IMG/VR virus record: IMGVR_UViG_3300022602_002355 | Coordinates: 1 to 57,815 of that record | DNA length: 57,815 bases | Source: a virus | Direction: 5' to 3' (one strand) | Shown here: positions 5,101-43,601 of the stretch, in pieces | How the letters are laid out: each line of letters opens with the position of its first letter | Numbering within the stretch: position 1 is the stretch's first letter | The notes under the pieces: model-generated | The model's database searches: none | The model's input: the letters and a program-made list of their open reading frames with translations, nothing else | Told to the model about the DNA's origin: nothing | Made by a program: the position numbers and the translations under genes

Positions 5101-8100
5101 GTCAGATACTTGCAAAATCTCCATACACACAAACTGCATCTAGTTTCTCTAAGAGTTACAACCGTCATGTATTCAGCGGTGGTATGTTTGTTGACGGCTT
5201 TACCGGTAACGTTACTGCTACCCCTGATCCAAGTCAAGGAAGCTATGCACAATTAGATAGTAATAACCTTCCAACTAAGATTGCAGTTTATGGATTAGGA
5301 CGTCCTGATGTTTATAACACATCAACTTATGTAAGACCACAAACTCCGTGTTTCTTTGTAAACAACGGTATTACATACGATGTAGACTTTATTAGTGAAT
5401 TCGATCCTGTAGCTAACTACGGTGTGTTAAATCTTAATCCAGATGCGGCTGGCGGTGTTAAATCATTTACTTTCTCAGCTGGCAGTATTTCAGGATTTGC
5501 GGCAAATACAACAACTACACTAACATTTAGTAGTCCACAGGCACCAGGCGGTTTGGCCGCATACGGTACTGTAACCACTAACGGCACCGGTGTTGTTACC
5601 AATGTAACAGTTACATTCCCTGGCGTAGGATACGAAAGTGTTCCTACATTTACTATCGGTGGTGCTTTCCTAGGATTTAGCTACAATGCAGGAACTGGTG
5701 CTATTTCTGGATACAACATTATCCTTCCAGGTACTGGATATAAAGTAGGAACTCCAGTTAACTTTAATACTCCACAAGGCGGTACAGCGGCCGCGGCAAC
5801 TGTGTCTAGTGTGAACTCAAGTGGTGGTATTACTGGACTAACATTTAGCACTCATGGTACATTATACAATTCATCAAATGCTCCTGCAACATATACATTT
5901 GGTACTATAAACTATAACAATGTAACAATCCTAACCGAAGTAGGTTATTTAGGAACACTACCGACGGAGATTACTTTAGTTACTGCGGGTAACAGAAGTA
6001 TGTTGGCAAATGACTTTACGCAGTTAAATGACTTAGGTTACGGTATTTTTGCTACCAACGGTGGTTTTATTGAAAACGTTTCTATGTTCTCATACTACTG
6101 CCATACTTCTTACTATGCACTAAATGGTGCGCAATTAAGAACTATTACTGGTTCAAGTGCATACGGTGATTGGGGCTTGGTTGCTGAAGGTAGTAACCCA
6201 CAAGAAGTTCCTATTTCAGTTATCAATAAAAACCCAATGGTGGTTGAAGGTACTATTGTTAACACAGGAAATTATATTACCTTAGCAGGTGCTTCGACAA
6301 TTTATGTAAATTGCCCAGCAGGTTATATACCTCAGCTACAAAGCTATGTAGATATTTTACAAGATGGTTATGTTTATACCTATACTGTAAAGAGTGCCAC
6401 TTCTGTTGCAGATGGCAGTTATTCTAATTTATATTCTTTAGCAATTTCATATGGTGCGGCAGGAACAGGTCTTGCAGACGTTGCACCATTAGACGGTCAA
6501 GGAGTAACACTACGTATTGGTTACGATCAAGAATTAATTGGTCTACAATCAAGCGTTATCAGTCGCCCAAGCACTGCGATGATATTCAACGAAAATCCAA
6601 ATCAAGTTTATAAGATTTTATCTTATACTGATGAAGGTAATGATACTGTTATCGCAGAAGGTAATGTTGCTTATGATTACATCGTGCTTAACCCTTATAC
6701 AAACATAGCAGGTTTAGGTCAACAAGGTATTGGTAACATTAGTTGGGCAGACAAAAGGTATGTTGGTCCAAGTAATACACTACCAGTCGGTATCATTAAC
6801 TCGGGTACTGGTTATGCAAGCCTTGGCACATATCATGTTACGTTCCCAACTCCGCCGACTATTACTGCACAATCAAATGGCGTTAACGGAACTAATACTG
6901 CGCCAGTGAGTGTAATTAATATTACCGGTGCTAGTGGAACAATTCACCCTGGTATGATTTTCACAACAACTTCGTTGACAGCAGTTATTCCTGCTAATAC
7001 GTATGTTTCTTGGGCAAACTCTACAGGCAGTAATGTTACTACTGTTCGTTTAAACAATAACGTTTATGGATTGGCAAATAGTGATCATATCGGATTCGTT
7101 GGTGTAGCCGCGACAGGTACTGCTCACGTTAGTGCAATCAATACTATTGATTACATCCAATTAACAAATCACGGTGCAGGTTATCCTAACAATGTATTAT
7201 ACCAAACTGGTACTATTGATTCCCCAGGCGGTGGTGGTACACAAGCAACTGTAATCGGTAGTGTACAAGGTATCATCGGTTCAGACAGTATTAAGATTGC
7301 TCCATTAGGATCATTAGATCAAGCTCGTATTACAACCGGCTTGTCTGCATCAACACCATACTATTACTATTTTGGTTACCTAGGTAAGACCTACAGAATT
7401 ACCGGTTATACTCCTCCTTCAATCACAGGAGATGCAAGTTTTGGTGAAATTCAATTTGTTCTTGATTCAGACGGTGTAAGTGGATTACAAGACGAAATTA
7501 TTCTTCCAAATGCTGTTATCGGTATCGGCGGCAGTAACGCTGGTTTACAAGCAGGTATTGGAGCAGGCCAGACAGGTAACATCACTGTTAAGATTTCTAC
7601 ATTACGTGCTACGGCACATGACATGGTAGACGTTGGTACTGGCGGTTATGCTACAAGTAAGATTCCAAATGACTTATATGGTCCTCCATTGCAAGGTCCA
7701 TTCCAAAGTCAAGAAGTTAACATGATCGGTAAGGGTGTTGTTTATTATGTAACAACCGACCAAGATGGTAACTTCCGTGTTGGTGAATATTTTAACGTTG
7801 ACCAAGGTCACGGCACTGTTACAATTAGTGCTCCAATTGGTTTAAGCAACGTTGACAGTATTACATTCAAACGCGGTGATACAACTGTTAATAGATTTAG
7901 TACAGATGGTACTATGGCCGCAAACGCTACTACCAAAGTACCAGTCGAACAAGCGATTGTAACTTTTGTTAACAAACGTTTAGGTCTAGATCAAACAGGT
8001 GCGGTTTATCAACAGTCATTGTTAGGACCTGGCTTCTTAGATCGTACAGGTCTGTTGCCAATGACTGGTAACATCAACATGAATAGCGAAGCTATTATTA

Positions 8101-36638: not shown

Positions 36639-36646
36639 ACTAAATA
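36639..36646 (+). promoter_or_regulatory. Late promoter (ACTAAATA)
   Basis: ACTAAATA, identical to the octamer at 2054, lies 63 bases before ATG 36710. The leader contains a small hairpin, ATCTT-AAAA-AAGAT at 36683-36696, and GATCGGTGAAAC before the ATG. Confidence 0.6.
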
Positions 36647-36709
36647 CTCTATTAATTGGGTGTTTAGCTGTATCATTGCGACATCTTAAAAAAGATCGGT
36701 GAAACTATT

Positions 36710-37060
36710 ATGCTATTAAATGAATTTTTCGGTAAGTCACAAACTCATGATGTAACTGACAAAAATAAGTTCAGAGAAGAACAAGTCATGGACGAAGTAT
36801 TTGAATATATCTTAAATCAAGATGATCTACATAAGAAGTTTTTCTTACCAACTGCAAACAAAGTTAAGAATACTAAAAAAGACGATCCTAAACTCTGGGA
36901 ACCATTAGTCAATCACGGTTGCATGAAGTTTTACAAAGAAAAAGAAATCATCGAAGATCCTAGAGATTTGTTTACTAAAAAAATGAGAGAGAAACTATGT
37001 CAGCGTTTTGCTAAACATTTTCACGATGACATACGTAAAGACGAATACAAATTAGGATAA
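36710..37060 (+). CDS. Late hypothetical protein with capsid-targeting-like N-terminus
   Basis: This 116-residue charged helical protein starts MLLNEFFGKSQ. It shares the E-F-hydrophobic core with T4 internal-protein leaders (MKTYQEFIAE) and with later genes here, but lacks a clear L/I-x-E cleavage site. It ends with TAA; one codon (TTC) later, in the same frame, an ATG starts the next gene. A region DDPKLWEPLVNHGCMKFYKE is followed by RDLFTKKMREKLCQRFAKHF. The function is unknown. Confidence 0.5.
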   Translation: MLLNEFFGKSQTHDVTDKNKFREEQVMDEVFEYILNQDDLHKKFFLPTANKVKNTKKDDPKLWEPLVNHGCMKFYKEKEIIEDPRDLFTKKMREKLCQRFAKHFHDDIRKDEYKLG

Positions 37061-37063
37061 TTC

Positions 37064-37942
37064 ATGGCAGGTAAAAGACTTTCATCTGCTGGTATCGATG
37101 TTGCCCGTGTAACCAAGGATGATTTCACTGCGGCTAAGGCTAAAATAGATCCACTATTAAAGAAAGCAGGTATTACAGCAGGATGGACTTCAGGTGGGGC
37201 AGGTAGTTTTGACCCAGAGCACCCATACCCTGGCACATTAAGAACAGACTCTGGGGATATCGACATTATGATCGATCCTCAAGAATTATTACATAAATTT
37301 CCAGCCGACATCGAAGCATGGAACGCATCATCAAAGAAGCCATTAGGTCCTAAAGCACTAGCAACAGCATTTGCTGATCCTGCTAAAAAAATTAAATTAC
37401 AAATGAGTGCTAGTAAAGCCGCGTTGGCAAACTATATGACTCAACACGGTATGCCAACTGATCCAGGAACACTTACCGTACAATATTCAGCTAACAATAA
37501 AAATTATTCAATCGACCTAATTGTTAGACCTCGAGATAGTTGGAATTTACACACGCACGATTTTAGTTTAGACCCTGGTATGCGTGGTGGCGATTTATGG
37601 AATGAAATTTATCCAGCACTGGCTAAAGTTAGTAGTCAAAAGAAATTCATTGATCCCAAAACAGGCGAAGAAAAAGGTAATATCCAATTTAGTCCAGACA
37701 AAGGATTAGTTGATAGAGAAACAGGACAAGTAGTTGCTAGTGGCGCTGAAAAAGATAAGATTGCTAAATTTTTAATTGGCCCAGAAGCGGGTGCTCGTGA
37801 CATATCCAGTCTAACCGGAATTAAAAATGCCTTGCGAAAATATCCAGATAAATGGAACGCAGTTAAACAATTTTTCCCAACACAAGAAAACATTCAATTT
37901 GGTTCAGGTGCGTGGATGCGTAAAATGATGGAGAGACTATAA
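37064..37942 (+). CDS. Polymerase-beta-fold nucleotidyltransferase 1
   Basis: This 292-residue protein shows the nucleotidyltransferase-fold pattern: WTSGGAGSF (G-S/G helix start, residues 41-49), TDSGDIDIMID with Asp65/Asp67 as metal-binding pair, and YSIDLIVRP with a third Asp near residue 151. Substrate is unknown; related enzymes act on RNA ends, proteins or antibiotics. It is in frame with the preceding gene across one stop codon. TTAGGATAATTC gives a fair ribosome site of its own. Its neighbour downstream is a second member of the same fold. Confidence 0.6.
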   Translation: MAGKRLSSAGIDVARVTKDDFTAAKAKIDPLLKKAGITAGWTSGGAGSFDPEHPYPGTLRTDSGDIDIMIDPQELLHKFPADIEAWNASSKKPLGPKALATAFADPAKKIKLQMSASKAALANYMTQHGMPTDPGTLTVQYSANNKNYSIDLIVRPRDSWNLHTHDFSLDPGMRGGDLWNEIYPALAKVSSQKKFIDPKTGEEKGNIQFSPDKGLVDRETGQVVASGAEKDKIAKFLIGPEAGARDISSLTGIKNALRKYPDKWNAVKQFFPTQENIQFGSGAWMRKMMERL

Positions 37943-38961
37943 TGCGTATTATAGAAATTCTCAAAGAGGGCGGTTGGGATACTGCGGCTACACAAGGAAC
38001 AGTTATTACTCCTAGTGTTACCAAACAAGGATTAGCCGCTATGAATAAATTCTTAGAAGGCTTTAATCAATATCTAAAACAAAAAGGAATTGGTCCAGTT
38101 CGTGCAGGTACACCTACAGGAAGTAGTGCATATCACAATGTCGATCCAGAAACAGCAATCTACGGCGATATAGATTTACAAATTATTGTACCAGAGATTC
38201 CAGAGTTAGCAGGTAAGACACAATCACAGGTACAAACCTATTGGCACAAATTAGCAGGTGATTATGTCGCGGCACATCCTAATGTAGCACATGAAGAAAG
38301 TAAACCGGGTCATCCAGTATTACCAATCGGTAATAATCAATTTGTGCAAGTGGATATGATGATACACCCTGAACCATTGGCTAAATGGGGTGCGGCTCGT
38401 ACTATTCCAGAACGCGGAGTTAAAGGATTATTGCACGGGAACATGTTCTCTGTATTCGGTGAATTGTTAAACATGAGTATACAACACAGTGGTGTACAGT
38501 TTAAGGTTAGAGATAATGTAAGACAACCGTACACTACCACACGCAAAAACTATGAATTGAAAACTATTAGCACAAATCCGGAAACATTTGTCTATGATAC
38601 GTTTATGCACGAAGCACAATTATTGGGAATTAAACATCCAAAAATTGATCCGTTGTTAAAACAATTCCCTGGAAAGAACTTAGAAGATGTTAAAATATCT
38701 AATCTAGTTAATGCCGTTAAAGGATTTGCACGTAGTTGTGACATGAACAATATGTTTACACAAGGCGAATTATCTGGATTCATGTCAGGCGAAGATTTCT
38801 TAAAACAATTCTGGGAACGATATGAAGGTAAGGCATTAAAAGACATCGCTGGATCTAAGAGAGATAAGGCAATTGGTAACCCAGATGCAGAAGCTCGTGC
38901 CGAAGCAGATAAACAAAAAATATTAAGCGGATTAAAAATGGTTAAAGGACTGTTTCAATGA
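37942..38961 (+). CDS. Polymerase-beta-fold nucleotidyltransferase 2 with capsid-targeting-like leader
   Basis: This 339-residue protein starts MRIIEILKE followed by GG, resembling T4 capsid-targeting leaders and ending in L-K-E/G, which fits the gp21 protease site L/I-x-E. The fold motif is GTPTGSSAY (Gly60-Ser61), IYGDIDLQIIV with Asp76/Asp78, and VQVDMMIHPEP with Asp138. Its pattern parallels the preceding gene, so the two form a tandem pair. The C-terminal half (NPETFVYDTFMHEAQLLG) is helical. Packaging in the head and injection into the host is inference. Confidence 0.6.
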   Translation: MRIIEILKEGGWDTAATQGTVITPSVTKQGLAAMNKFLEGFNQYLKQKGIGPVRAGTPTGSSAYHNVDPETAIYGDIDLQIIVPEIPELAGKTQSQVQTYWHKLAGDYVAAHPNVAHEESKPGHPVLPIGNNQFVQVDMMIHPEPLAKWGAARTIPERGVKGLLHGNMFSVFGELLNMSIQHSGVQFKVRDNVRQPYTTTRKNYELKTISTNPETFVYDTFMHEAQLLGIKHPKIDPLLKQFPGKNLEDVKISNLVNAVKGFARSCDMNNMFTQGELSGFMSGEDFLKQFWERYEGKALKDIAGSKRDKAIGNPDAEARAEADKQKILSGLKMVKGLFQ

Positions 38962-41759
38962 ACCTATTTGAAATCTTTAATAACCCTAGAAGAGTAATCA
39001 ACGAAGGTATAGATCACCCCGAGGACCTTATTATTCAACAAGGTGCGGCTGGTGCTGACCGTGTTATTGATGAGCTTTCAGGATTGAGCAAAGATTCAGG
39101 AACAGTTACTATCAAGTGGGATGGTTTCCCAGCAGTTGTATTTGGTCGTGATGCAAGTGGACAATTAGTGTTTGTTGATAAACACATGTTTGATAAAATT
39201 GCAAAAGGCAAGATGGAATTTACAACTATTCAAGATTATGATATTAGCCGTGAAGCAGATCGTGCAAGTCTTTGGCAAGCAGAAGAAACAATTCGTCCAG
39301 CATTAGATGCTATTGTACCGGCAGTAAAAGATCAATATTGGATGGGCGATTTAATGTGGACGGGTGTTCCAAAAACAGTCAACGGATATTATGATTTTAA
39401 ACCTAACACAGTAGAATATCGTATTCCTGTAGACAGCGAATTAGGTAATAAGATAGAAAACAGTGTAGGCGGAATTGCTGTACACACATTTATTCCCGGT
39501 CTTGGTCAAGGCGATGTACCATTAAAAGGACTTAAAGGATTAAAAGATAAAGCAGGCATTACTTTCTTAACAAGTGAGATGCATGAAAAGCCTAAAGTAA
39601 CTGTTGATCCTAAATTAGTAAACCATGCTAAAGCAGTCGTGAATCAATACAGAGGTGCTGTAGATAAATTCATGTCAGACCTAACTGCTATGAAAGGCAA
39701 GATGGTATTAACTGCCATGAGCCCATTCATTACTAGCATGTTAGAAGAAAATGATATTAGTAATGAAATTGTTCCTAGATTTTTAGAATTTTTAAAGAGC
39801 AGATTAAGCCCGGCCGCCGCACAGAAATTCTTAGGTGCAAATCAAGACGGCTGGTTGTTTCAAGCAGATGGCGGTGCTATGGGATTGCTAGGTGTGTGGA
39901 GCATGTGGGCCGCTGTGACAGATTTAAAAATTCATACAAAACAAATTATCGATAGTCAGCAACAGGGCAGTGAAGTTATTGCGTTGATTGACGGTCAAAC
40001 AAGTCACGAAGGTTATGTATTCGGATCAGGCAAGGACAAATTAAAATTAGTTGATAGACTAGGATTTAGTCGTGCTAACTTTGCTAAACATAAAGTACCA
40101 GATGAAGAAATCCAGGCTAAGAGTAAAACTCCATTAGCTGTATTTTGTTTCGGTCGTATGAATCCTCCTACACTAGGACATAAACTAGTAATGGAGAAAA
40201 CAGTACAGATGGGTGGCAAGAACGCATTTATTTTCTTAAGTAACAGCGAAGGTAAAGATGATCCTTTAGACCCAGCAACTAAGGCCGCTTTCATATCTCA
40301 AATGTATCCTAATTTTGCAGGACATATTGTAAAAGATTTCGTACAAGGTCCTATATATGCGGCTAACTGGTTATACGACAGAGGCTTTCGTAACATGGCG
40401 TTTGTTGCAGGAAGCGATAGATTAGGCAAGGAAAAAGGCAGTATTGAAAAACTATTAAATAGTTGGAACAGCGGTCCTGTGCGTACAACAGACAATTCTC
40501 GAGGTGAACAAGGTCGCGAACATGTTGTCATACAATTTGTCAGCAGTGGTCAGCGAGATCCAGATAGCGAAGGAATACAAGGGTACAGTGGAACTAAAGC
40601 AAGACAGGCCGCAGAAGCAGGCAATGAAGCACAGTTTCAACAATTTACAGGAGTCAAGTCAAATGTTGTTGTAGGTGGCAAAACTCTGTATCAAGCAACA
40701 AGAGAAGGTTTGGGGATTAAAGATCAACAACCTCCACAACCGACTCCGGGGAATAATATGAAATTAAACACATTTACTAATCAACATACAACTAATGAAG
40801 ATTTAGGCGCAGGTGGCGAACACACTGGTATGAGTCCTGTTAATGGAAATACGCAGAAATTAGATATGAGCGGGCATGGTAGAGGATGGAATTCTGCAAT
40901 GCAAAATCCAGAAGAATACGATACAGATGATCATCCAAATGAAAAATTTGCTCGTCTTAATAAACTTAAAGACAAGTTAAGTGGAATAAAATCAGAGCTA
41001 GCAAAACGTAAAGTTAAAGAAAGCATGGCAGGAGTTGGCATGGAACAACATGCTCGCGAAACTGGTCAACGCTGGAAGGGATATGCCGGTGGCGAAAGTT
41101 CCGGAATGGACGAAGCACAGTTTAATAGTAAACAAGAAGTCATTGATTATTTTGTTAAGAATGGTAAGAGTGCATCTGCAGGTGCTATGGCATGGGAACG
41201 AGGTTGGAGAGGACATACTCCTAAAAAGAAAAAAGAATTGCGTCCACCTGTAAGAAGCTATCATGATGATTTAGATGACAAGCGTTACAATGAAGCTATG
41301 TTACCAAAAAGCGATTTTGTAGGTTCCAAGAAAAATAAATTAGGGCCTGCTGGACAACTAAAAGGCAACATGAAACGCCCTGCACGTCAGGGTGACCTAG
41401 TAGGCGGCAGTGAAAGTATTGAAGAATTATCATTTATGGGCAGTCCTTGTACTAAGGATTGTAGCGGACATAAAGCAGGTTTTAATTGGGCGAAAAAGAA
41501 TAGCGGTAGATTAGCGGCTTCACCTAGTCAAAGTTTTAATAACGGTGCGGCTATTCAACAAGCACAAAAAACAAAAAAGAAAAGAGTTAGAACACCTGAT
41601 GTAGCAGAAGATCAACGCTTAGATAAAAGTTGCTGGAAAGGTTACCGAAAACAAGGTACTAAAATGAAGGGCGGCACTCGTGTAAACAACTGCGTCAAAG
41701 TAGGCGAAGCTTGGGAAAACGAAATTGCAAAAGCTATCAAATTATTAGAAAACAAGTGA
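38958..41759 (+). CDS. Fusion: ligase-like domain, NMNAT-like adenylyltransferase, basic tail
   Basis: This is a 933-residue multidomain protein. Residues 50-370 look like an ATP-dependent ligase-type nucleotidyltransferase: KWDG at 53-56 (motif I K-x-D-G), MGDLMWTG as a motif-III-like strand, HEGYVFG near 352 (motif IV) and KLK near 361-363 (motif V). Residues about 395-580 form an HxGH-class adenylyltransferase: FCFGRMNPPTLGHK (T-x-G-H variant) and YSGTKARQAAEAG (second motif). The last 350 residues are basic, disordered and contain PCTKDCSGHKAGFNWAKK and CWKGYRKQGTKMKGG, pieces I recall from structural-type proteins of T4-like aquatic phages. The N-terminus MNLFEIFNN...VINE/G may be a capsid-targeting leader. 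Confidence 0.6.
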   Translation: MNLFEIFNNPRRVINEGIDHPEDLIIQQGAAGADRVIDELSGLSKDSGTVTIKWDGFPAVVFGRDASGQLVFVDKHMFDKIAKGKMEFTTIQDYDISREADRASLWQAEETIRPALDAIVPAVKDQYWMGDLMWTGVPKTVNGYYDFKPNTVEYRIPVDSELGNKIENSVGGIAVHTFIPGLGQGDVPLKGLKGLKDKAGITFLTSEMHEKPKVTVDPKLVNHAKAVVNQYRGAVDKFMSDLTAMKGKMVLTAMSPFITSMLEENDISNEIVPRFLEFLKSRLSPAAAQKFLGANQDGWLFQADGGAMGLLGVWSMWAAVTDLKIHTKQIIDSQQQGSEVIALIDGQTSHEGYVFGSGKDKLKLVDRLGFSRANFAKHKVPDEEIQAKSKTPLAVFCFGRMNPPTLGHKLVMEKTVQMGGKNAFIFLSNSEGKDDPLDPATKAAFISQMYPNFAGHIVKDFVQGPIYAANWLYDRGFRNMAFVAGSDRLGKEKGSIEKLLNSWNSGPVRTTDNSRGEQGREHVVIQFVSSGQRDPDSEGIQGYSGTKARQAAEAGNEAQFQQFTGVKSNVVVGGKTLYQATREGLGIKDQQPPQPTPGNNMKLNTFTNQHTTNEDLGAGGEHTGMSPVNGNTQKLDMSGHGRGWNSAMQNPEEYDTDDHPNEKFARLNKLKDKLSGIKSELAKRKVKESMAGVGMEQHARETGQRWKGYAGGESSGMDEAQFNSKQEVIDYFVKNGKSASAGAMAWERGWRGHTPKKKKELRPPVRSYHDDLDDKRYNEAMLPKSDFVGSKKNKLGPAGQLKGNMKRPARQGDLVGGSESIEELSFMGSPCTKDCSGHKAGFNWAKKNSGRLAASPSQSFNNGAAIQQAQKTKKKRVRTPDVAEDQRLDKSCWKGYRKQGTKMKGGTRVNNCVKVGEAWENEIAKAIKLLENK

Positions 41760-41980
41760 ACGATCTAGACGAAATAAAAATTCTTGCAGGTATTAGTAAT
41801 CGCCCTCGATTACGAGAATACAGCTCCCATCTAGAAGAAATAAATAAAGGTATAAACATATCTGTTACAGGCACTGAAAAGGGACGGTTGCAGAAAGAAC
41901 ACAATATTAAACCAGGAACTCCAGAATGGTTTAAATTGTGGTTTAGTTTACCGTATTTTACAGGCGAAAAACCAATATGA
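41756..41980 (+). CDS. Small conserved phage protein (GTG start)
   Basis: GTG 41756 overlaps the preceding stop (GTGA) and gives a 74-residue product starting V/M-NDLDEIKILAGIS; an earlier ATG would overlap 49 bases. The end IKPGTPEWFKLWFSLPYFTG is a motif I recall from T4-like phages of water. It overlaps the next gene by four bases. The function is unknown. Confidence 0.55.
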   Translation: MNDLDEIKILAGISNRPRLREYSSHLEEINKGINISVTGTEKGRLQKEHNIKPGTPEWFKLWFSLPYFTGEKPI

Positions 41981-42357
41981 GAGCAAAAGAGTTTATTTTT
42001 AAAGAAGCAAAGGATTTTAAACCTAATGAGTTTAGACACGATGCTATGGCAGGATTACCTGGTGCTCATGCTTGGCCAGAATTAGATAACAGCTCTGGGT
42101 ATCTTGCATATCGTTTCGGAGTCGCACTTGCCGGACAGCCAGATCAAAAGATGGATGTAGTTGGACCAACTGGATTGAAGATGGTTACTATTGCGTACAC
42201 TCCTGCAGAACAAGCAATTTTAGATGCGGCCGCTGGATTAGTAGGAACACCTAAAGTACGATTAACACCAGATAGTAGTACAGAATTAGCAGACACAAAT
42301 AAACAAAGCCCTGTTGCCAATTGGAATAAACATGCTAACGGGAAAATGAAAAAATGA
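41977..42357 (+). CDS. Hypothetical protein with capsid-targeting-like N-terminus
   Basis: This 126-residue protein starts MRAKEFIFKEAKDF; E-F-I...K-E/A parallels T4 MKTYQEFIAE/A, although the P3 position is Phe rather than Leu or Ile. The body has MAGLPGAHAWPELDNSSGYL and ends SPVANWNKHANGKMKK. It overlaps both neighbours by four bases. Its function is unknown; internal head protein suspected. Confidence 0.5.
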   Translation: MRAKEFIFKEAKDFKPNEFRHDAMAGLPGAHAWPELDNSSGYLAYRFGVALAGQPDQKMDVVGPTGLKMVTIAYTPAEQAILDAAAGLVGTPKVRLTPDSSTELADTNKQSPVANWNKHANGKMKK

Positions 42358-42638
42358 AAATTGTAGAGTTGATCAATGAGAGTGATGACAATTGGGATGA
42401 GTTATCTCAAAAAGTATCAAAAAAATCAGCTGATCAAGCAATCAAACATCTTCAAAAGGATTTAAAAGATCCTATTGGATATGAAGCAGTGGACCATATG
42501 ATGACCAGTATAGCTAAAAAATACAATATGACTCCTCATAACCTACATTTATTATTTGTAGAAAAAGTTGGCACTACACCAGATGTTTGGATTAGAAAAA
42601 TCGGTCCAAGTTTAGACAAGTGGATTAACAAAAAATGA
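42354..42638 (+). CDS. Small helical protein with capsid-targeting-like N-terminus
   Basis: This 94-residue protein starts MKIVELINE/S, fitting the leader pattern with an I-x-E cleavage site. The remainder is basic and helical (KVSKKSADQAIKHLQKDLKD), as in T4 internal proteins. It overlaps both neighbours through ATGA. The function is unknown. Confidence 0.5.
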   Translation: MKIVELINESDDNWDELSQKVSKKSADQAIKHLQKDLKDPIGYEAVDHMMTSIAKKYNMTPHNLHLLFVEKVGTTPDVWIRKIGPSLDKWINKK

Positions 42639-42802
42639 AAATCAACGAATTATTAGAATCAGCTACCTCGGGTGGTACTAGTTCGGGCGCAATAGCATCT
42701 GTTGTAAATCCAGGCGGCAAAAAGAAAAGCGAAGTAGGTTCATTGTTCGGCGGAAGCTATGGTGAAACAATGAATAATAAACCTAAGAAAAAAACCAAAA
42801 TA
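42635..42802 (+). CDS. 55-residue protein with capsid-targeting-like N-terminus
   Basis: ATG 42635 overlaps the upstream stop (ATGA); the frame ends at TAG 42800-42802. The product starts MKINELLE/SATSGG with an L-x-E site and continues as a flexible Gly/Ser-rich, Lys-rich chain (ASVVNPGGKKKSEVGSLFGG). It is too short to hold an enzyme domain. Placement and leader fit a small internal protein. Confidence 0.5.
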
Positions 42803-42818
42803 GTTAAGAGATAACATT

Positions 42819-43601
42819 ATGATGAATGAACATAAAAAAGGTGTAAAGGCGGTAAAGTACACAACTAAGCCAAGAAACTTTGTTGCTAAAAATGCTACTA
42901 CAGCTGGTGCAGGTGCTCACAAAGATAAAAAGAAAGCCGCTAAACAAGGTGAAGTGAAACATAAGAATAAAGATTATGCAGAACATCTTGAACAATCACT
43001 TAAATTAGCACTGTCGGAAGGCAGACATGGTTACGATTCTTATGGATATAGTCTTGCGCCGGGACATGATGAGGGCGAACCAGTTTACAGTCGCTACCAT
43101 GATGTAGCAGGCGGCGGAGCACCTCGTAATTATTCTAGTGCAAATTCTCAAGGCGGAGCATATGATGTTTACATTGACGGACGTCGTTGGAAAACATTCG
43201 ATACCCGTAGCCATGCATCAGCCGTTGCTAACAAACTAATTGCCAAAGGTAAAAGAGCCCAAATTAAAGCAGTTTCTGAAAGTTTTGCCAAAGAAGATCA
43301 TGGCGAATTTGGCAAGGCTAGTTTTGATACAGCAATTAGCTCAAAGATTCAACCTAGCAATCATCAGCAAATTGGTCGCAAAGATCCCAGAAGTCAGATC
43401 GGTGAAGGCGAAGATGCAGAAGGTGCAATGGCACGTACACAACTAATTGGTGCGGCTAAACAAGCATTAGAACTTGCTGGTAAATTGAAAAGCGATACTC
43501 AATTAGATTCTTGGGTACAATCCAAAATTACTGTAGGTACTAATTATATTGATACTGTTTATAATTTCTTAATGAATGGTAAACAAGACGTAGACAAATA
43601 A
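42819..43601 (+). CDS. Late structural-type protein
   Basis: This 260-residue protein starts with a basic segment (KYTTKPRNFVAKNATTAGAG, then AHKDKKKAAKQGEVKHK). The C-terminal 60 residues (GAMARTQLIGAAKQALELAG and ITVGTNYIDTVYNFLMNG) form a helical unit I recall from several structural proteins of T4-like aquatic phages. The middle contains YDVYIDGRRWKTFDTRSHAS, a small beta unit. It ends the late operon before a terminator. A virion position is inferred. Confidence 0.55.
   Translation: MMNEHKKGVKAVKYTTKPRNFVAKNATTAGAGAHKDKKKAAKQGEVKHKNKDYAEHLEQSLKLALSEGRHGYDSYGYSLAPGHDEGEPVYSRYHDVAGGGAPRNYSSANSQGGAYDVYIDGRRWKTFDTRSHASAVANKLIAKGKRAQIKAVSESFAKEDHGEFGKASFDTAISSKIQPSNHQQIGRKDPRSQIGEGEDAEGAMARTQLIGAAKQALELAGKLKSDTQLDSWVQSKITVGTNYIDTVYNFLMNGKQDVDK

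Follow-up and report, generated by a model that had tools for sequence, protein, structure and literature searches.

Cleavable leaders that target proteins to the capsid are known in phage T4, and a review suggests that T4-like phages could carry various proteins in this way (PMC9026906). The T4 internal proteins IPI, IPII and IPIII have an N-terminal leader of 10-19 residues that is cut at L/I-x-E, and the first ten residues of IPIII suffice for targeting (PMC9026906). Injected protein sets are known for few phages; as IPI, IPIII and Alt of T4 illustrate, they can determine host range, escape from defences and the takeover of the host. Here we describe a run of nine genes (36710-43601) in the window, i.e., the whole stretch of 57,815 bases analysed, which is the complete IMG/VR record IMGVR_UViG_3300022602_002355 and a fragment of a T4-like phage genome. 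Six genes of the run (36710-42814) encode products that start with a similar short leader. We consider it very likely that the run is a late-expressed cassette of capsid-targeted internal proteins, whose leaders would be cut and whose cargo would be ejected into the host.

The run shares the leader layout of the T4 system and differs in cargo. The leader of T4 IPI, MKTFKEFTSTTTPVSTITE↓A (MKTFKEF...ITE↓A; arrows mark cut positions, which are predicted for the window and its relatives), has the same two-part layout as that of product D. Unlike the T4 internal proteins, however, the cargo includes large enzymes with a nucleotidyltransferase fold, the leader sequences differ, and the mature parts have no detected homology to them. 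Alt (leader MELITELFDE) is a packed and ejected enzyme, and one relative with a leader of the MRAKEF type found here is likewise an ADP-ribosyltransferase (PF03496), whereas the enzymes of the window are pol-beta-fold nucleotidyltransferases and a DUF6267-cytidylyltransferase protein. The two halves of D are homologous to the cyanophage proteins T4-GC190, which is leader-bearing and reported from S-SM1 virions (PMC3037559), and T4-GC71 (DUF6267); these are encoded by separate genes in these cyanophages, while D fuses both behind one leader. MuF and polyvalent effectors are also enzymes that modify macromolecules and, by prediction, travel in heads and are injected (PMC9503650), but they ride as head-protein fusions instead of using a cleavable leader. 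Ejection proteins of phiKZ and SPN3US are cut by a prohead protease after x-x-E, but their propeptides are mostly much longer, often >100 residues, with different motifs (PMC5694885). New are the enzyme cargo, the change of leaders on conserved bodies, a leaderless allele, and the occurrence of one leader in families that are unrelated to each other. Our literature search, outside which subscription papers mostly fell, found nothing on this leader-tagged enzyme cargo and only a review on cyanophage capsid targeting.

The source phage is a freshwater-type T4 relative. Besides the run, the window carries tail fibres, a gp44-like clamp loader, a T4-type DNA polymerase, endonuclease V, a gp31-like protein and MazG; the gene families searched for yielded neither a portal nor a capsid gene, and a DNA search of phage records found no nucleotide-level relative. 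The genes of the run are tightly packed, and most junctions have short overlaps. The features are the following:

36639-36648, + strand: late-promoter-like sequence ACTAAATACT with a TAAATA core, 5' of the run
36710-37060, + strand: A, 116 residues, leader-like start MLLNEFFGKS, without an L/I-x-E site
37064-37942, + strand: B, 292-residue pol-beta/family X-like nucleotidyltransferase, leaderless in the window (M↓AGKRL)
37942-38961, + strand: C, 339-residue pol-beta-like nucleotidyltransferase, leader MRIIEILKE↓GGWDT
37942-37968, + strand: leader of C, predicted cut after E9 (L-K-E↓G)
38958-41759, + strand: D, 933-residue fusion of DUF6267 (ligase-like motifs), a cytidylyltransferase-like domain and a Cys module
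38958-39005, + strand: leader of D, MNLFEIFNNPRRVINE, predicted cut I-N-E↓G
39006-40094, + strand: DUF6267 domain of D, with motifs KWDG, GDLMW, EGYVF and KLKL
40143-40808, + strand: cytidylyltransferase-like domain of D (FGRMNPPTLGH; phrog_3041)
41756-41980, + strand: conserved 74-residue gene product, GTG start overlapping D, without a leader, 47-61% identical in homologous loci
41977-42357, + strand: E, 126 residues, leader MRAKEFIFKE↓A
42354-42638, + strand: F, 94 residues, leader MKIVELINE↓S
42635-42814, + strand: G, 59-residue basic protein, leader MKINELLE↓SATSGGTS
42819-43601, + strand: H, 260-residue DUF7230-like protein, leaderless in the window (MMNEHKKGVKA)

These features agree in large part with an earlier sequence-only reading, made from the letters and a list of open reading frames. 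All six open reading frames and their similar starts were found as described there, except that the last of them ends at 42814 and not at 42802. The run holds two further leaderless genes, at 41756-41980, which that reading does not mention, and at 42819-43601. It also placed the leaderless nucleotidyltransferase (B, 37064-37942) between the two large enzymes C and D, but this gene precedes both.

The strongest evidence on the leaders comes from homologous loci. D matches 27 loci in IMG/VR at 61-69% identity, two of which lie on the contigs G001 (214,617 bases) and G002 (245,550 bases). In five orthologous families (B, C, D, E and H) the bodies are conserved, while the leaders differ in sequence and in length (8 to 24 residues) with the Glu and the body constant. 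All 44 distinct leaders of these families end in [hydrophobic]-x-E, the P1 Glu having been required by the search that gathered them; P3 is I or L in 40 of the 44, and P1' is G, A or S in 37. In D, 12 of the 13 distinct leaders tabulated have [I/L]-x-E↓G, the distant L029 having I-T-E↓V, and the site is kept even though the spacer of one clade is 8 residues longer. Orthologues of C start with MRIKELFE↓GG, MRIRELLE↓GG or MRAHEFLKE↓GG, those of E with MRAKEFITE, MRAREFVNE or MRAKEFIVE, and those of H, leader-bearing there, with MKIKQLLDE↓AKKGVKA or MKITQILE↓S. Such leader change on fixed bodies may reflect recombinational swapping or re-evolution.

B is informative in that its window allele is leaderless, as had been noticed from the sequence, but its relatives do carry leaders. 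These comprise 8-16 residues ending in xxE↓A or xxE↓S (MRAQEFISE↓S, MRIQELITE↓A, MKIFELLIE↓S, MKIRELLE↓S, MRIRDLFE↓A, MKITELLFE↓S, MRAREFVRE↓S and MNSIAKHTKIATNIAE↓A), and all are followed by GKRLA or GRRLA. The window form, M↓AGKRL, thus begins exactly where the predicted cut of its relatives falls. Among phage records, tblastn found no relatives of B and C, so no isolates with these nucleotidyltransferases are known in that phage collection.

Where the earlier reading has a late promoter, a late-promoter-like motif was found. In each of the ten homologous loci compared, a TAAATA core lies 60-72 bases ahead of the first gene, against 35 of 187 genes in one relative, and a decamer identical to that of the run also precedes the gene for a 2968-residue fibre protein at 2106. 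Judged from this promoter-like motif, the run may be late-expressed.

To count leaders we used the pattern ^M.{2,4}E[FILVM][FILVM], of which the six leaders of the run are the form M-x3-E-[FIL]-[FIL]. In a search for further genes with the same start, only those six of the 74 called window genes match, all in the run, a count that is partly circular, as the pattern was read off those same six genes. A stricter pattern that also needs the Glu gave three matches in the window versus 0.26 expected from shuffled N-termini. The near-complete relative G001, with 253 called genes, has six matches outside its homologous cluster, from which we put the background near 2% of genes, although one of them (51461, MRAKEFIIE) is a probable true member; six of nine genes in the run is far above this level. 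As a positive control, the stricter pattern detected nine matches in T4 (150 kb) versus about 1.6 expected: ipII, ipIII, alt, gp21, gp22, gp24, gp2, 61.1 and one in alc. Of the nine, six are named core or shell proteins of T4, and their cleavage has been reviewed (PMC9026906). The loose pattern was dropped as evidence, since S-SM1 and most of T4 give little above the shuffled expectation.

The relatives G001, G002 and G003 encode gp21, the Peptidase_S77 prohead protease. On G001, the genes for gp21, gp22 and gp23 adjoin, and their products start with MSFLLRE↓S, MLDAFKKLFE↓S and MSVLLNE↓K. For gp23, the mature start probably reads LAE↓SATAGSTSAGN, placed by its position before the conserved mature part. 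The start of G resembles it: LLE↓SATSGGTSSG in the window and ITE↓TATAGSTSASN in relatives, the counterpart in both near-complete relatives beginning MKIQEIITE↓TATAGSTS. Virion evidence comes from a cyanophage. Over 200 aligned positions, the second half of D shares 31% identity with S-SM1 gene 190 (T4-GC190), the product of which starts with MKKFSAFLNE↓A (MKKFSAFLKE↓A in the P-SSM4 orthologue) and was found by mass spectrometry in purified S-SM1 virions (PMC3037559).

The fold searches with predicted models uphold the pol-beta fold that had been proposed for B and C. The AlphaFold model of B (pLDDT 86) best matched DNA polymerases lambda and beta in the PDB (E 2e-5), and D65, D67 and D151 are invariant. 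The model of C (pLDDT 80) best matched DNA polymerase lambda (E 5e-4), with D76, D78 and D138 invariant; residues 1-12 are unstructured and below 50, the leader being the least confident part. The TM-scores of these matches are modest (0.3-0.46). With this fold, a DxD pair and a third Asp, the models identify B and C as pol-beta superfamily nucleotidyltransferases. D had been read as a fusion of a ligase and an adenylyltransferase. Its first part is DUF6267 (PF19782, E 1e-37), a family on which we found no literature in the search described above. The core residues of KWDG, GDLMW, EGYVF and KLKL are invariant and their order, by eye, matches ligase/capping motifs I, III, IV and V, and from these motifs alone we infer that this part is ligase-like. 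The second half is cytidylyltransferase-like, matching the phrog_3041 cytidyltransferase (E 1e-34) with the (H/T)xGH motif present and Pfam PF01467 below its cut-off.

Five lines of comparative evidence, separate from the reasoning of the earlier reading, support capsid-targeting leaders: the site residues are conserved across families while the leaders change; the leaderless form of B starts exactly at the cut position; near-complete relatives encode gp21 and have sites of the same kind in their head proteins; the same pattern recovers the known gp21 substrates of T4; and mass spectrometry places a homologue of one cargo domain in virions. Several observations weigh against this interpretation. 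The gp21 gene, searched for in the window, is not on the 57.8-kb fragment, the homologues being those of the relatives. Four of the six leaders fit L/I-x-E, as had been counted from the sequence, but E (41977) has Phe at P3 (F-K-E), and neither A (36710) nor its orthologues, which begin MKLFEFF or MKLLEFF, have a cut site nearby; B and H are leaderless in the window. The virion evidence is confined to the cyanophage homologue of the second half of D and includes no closer relative, and the cyanophage DUF6267 is a separate protein without a leader. S-SM1 is enriched over shuffles for neither leader pattern, so it is homology and mass spectrometry that provide the link to GC190. As for the ligase, profile comparison (hhalign) of D with T4 gp30 and RnlB gave no support, and a PDB sequence-profile search of B, C and D gave no match. 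On balance, the predicted packaging of the products and cleavage of their leaders are well supported by comparison of sequences, and the virus particle probably contains these products and brings them into the bacterium together with its DNA. Of the claim that this phage packs nucleotide-modifying enzymes for delivery, the targeting leaders are supported, while ejection, by T4 precedent, and a nucleotide-modifying role in the host we infer.

The same leader occurs widely. A scan of IMG/VR for DNA encoding MRAKEF[I/V]xE listed at least 90 matches in at least 80 loci. A Shine-Dalgarno-like stretch accompanies 83 of those 90, and at least 13 unrelated clusters were distinguished among the mature parts. 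The E family is the largest cluster among the matches listed (at least 52 relatives), and the domain of F recurs behind MRAKEFIFE and MRAKEFIIE leaders in L084 and L085. One cargo protein belongs to the ADP-ribosyltransferase exoenzyme family (PF03496, E 9.5e-13), and others are GH19 hydrolases or contain an HExxH string. The leader is encoded in at least 71 distinct DNA versions with third-position changes, although the codons are narrow (AGA, AAA, GAA and TTT dominate); we therefore rejected the possibility that it is shared only through recent DNA copying. Among the matches listed, five of the 12 larger contigs encode gp21, each of them with a gp23 match as well; the remaining seven have neither, so they may lack that genome part.

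If the leaders work as in T4, the leader (M-x3-E-hydrophobic-hydrophobic) would, like the T4 capsid-targeting sequence, attach the product to the scaffold core of the prohead, a gp21-type prohead protease would cut after [L/I]-x-E and remove it, and the mature protein would remain in the head alongside the DNA until its ejection into the next host. The enzymes of the cargo, which include two pol-beta (family X)-fold nucleotidyltransferases and the DUF6267-cytidylyltransferase fusion with ligase-like motifs, would at best guess have nucleic acid as their target during the first minutes after infection. Since a ligase-like protein accompanies two family X-like folds, they would most likely process ends, gaps or nicks of the genome that enters the cell; we place no more than about a third of our confidence in this, and modification of host nucleic acid or of a defence signal is the main alternative. 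The leaders could also bring the proteins into the prohead and be cut while the enzymes serve head maturation or DNA packaging, sealing or filling DNA, without functioning in the next host. Polymerase-like and ligase-like cargo would fit this, and T4 gp2, a virion DNA-end protein, has a similar start. However, the T4 leader proteins Alt and IPI work inside the host after their ejection (PMC9026906, PMC3012670), and the ADP-ribosyltransferase behind an MRAKEF leader needs host NAD and protein targets, and we regard a role confined to the head as improbable.

Two explanations deny the leaders any link to the capsid. The shared start might be an N-terminal helix that binds a membrane or a partner, with the Glu conserved for other reasons, and the leaders are indeed short and amphipathic-looking. 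Yet leaderless bodies start at the residue after the Glu, the P3/P1 rule is that of gp21, T4 head-core proteins share the pattern, and the homologue GC190 is reported from virions (PMC3037559), which makes such a helix very improbable. Chance, or convergence near start sites through frequent K/R/I/E codons, has almost negligible probability in our judgement: the pattern is loose, was picked after seeing the genes and has a background of about 2%, but it marks six of nine genes in one run, is kept across families and lineages, and in its MRAKEF[I/V]xE form has undergone synonymous change ahead of unrelated bodies.

Capsid targeting may reach beyond this run. We tentatively propose, with slightly less than even confidence, that freshwater T4-like phages have a general injection system in the form of a portable capsid-address code: unrelated enzymes (family X-like polymerases, ligase-like proteins, ADP-ribosyltransferases, candidate metalloproteases and GH19 hydrolases) would gain or lose a cleavable leader of ~9 residues, injected sets could be read from sequence, and the window cassette would deliver a ready-made DNA-end repair kit. 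If the leader rule is true, sequence suffices to list the enzymes that uncultured T4-like phages package, what T4-like phages other than T4 inject becomes directly testable, and natural leaders are gained for loading enzymes into phage heads.

Several further observations were made. Two very large T4-like contigs, L083 (524,565 bases) and L121 (338,435 bases), have gp21, gp23 and the MRAKEF leader. L089 has two adjacent MRAKEF genes, 6643-7242 (-) and 7242-7946 (-), of which the first encodes the PF03496 protein; the second has no Pfam match and may, by eye, be ADP-ribosyltransferase-like. The protein of L132:4042-4701 (-) has MRAKEFVSE, then a Tat-like signal, MSRRGFLGALGAGAMAASG, and then a GH19 domain; it might be injected and then exported, or its start might be misplaced. 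Leader proteins with an HExxH string are found at G001:112628-113014 (HELTH), G001:51461-52006 (HEAYH), L080:11007-11528 (HELVH) and L135:3073-3858 (HELNH), and are candidate packaged metalloproteases; the L080 and L135 proteins, the two scanned, matched no Pfam family.

The C-terminal module of D, SCWKGYRKQGTKMKGGTRVNNCVK (41625-41753), recurs in H-family proteins of relatives and in an S-PM2 protein encoded near its DUF6267 gene, and is a second module shared among these proteins. Finally, two T4 proteins have leader-like starts, gp2 (L066:26061-26885; MAIFQIINE↓S) and the uncharacterised 61.1 (L065:18966-19130; MKTFKEFIKE↓D), and by its start 61.1 is a possible internal protein.

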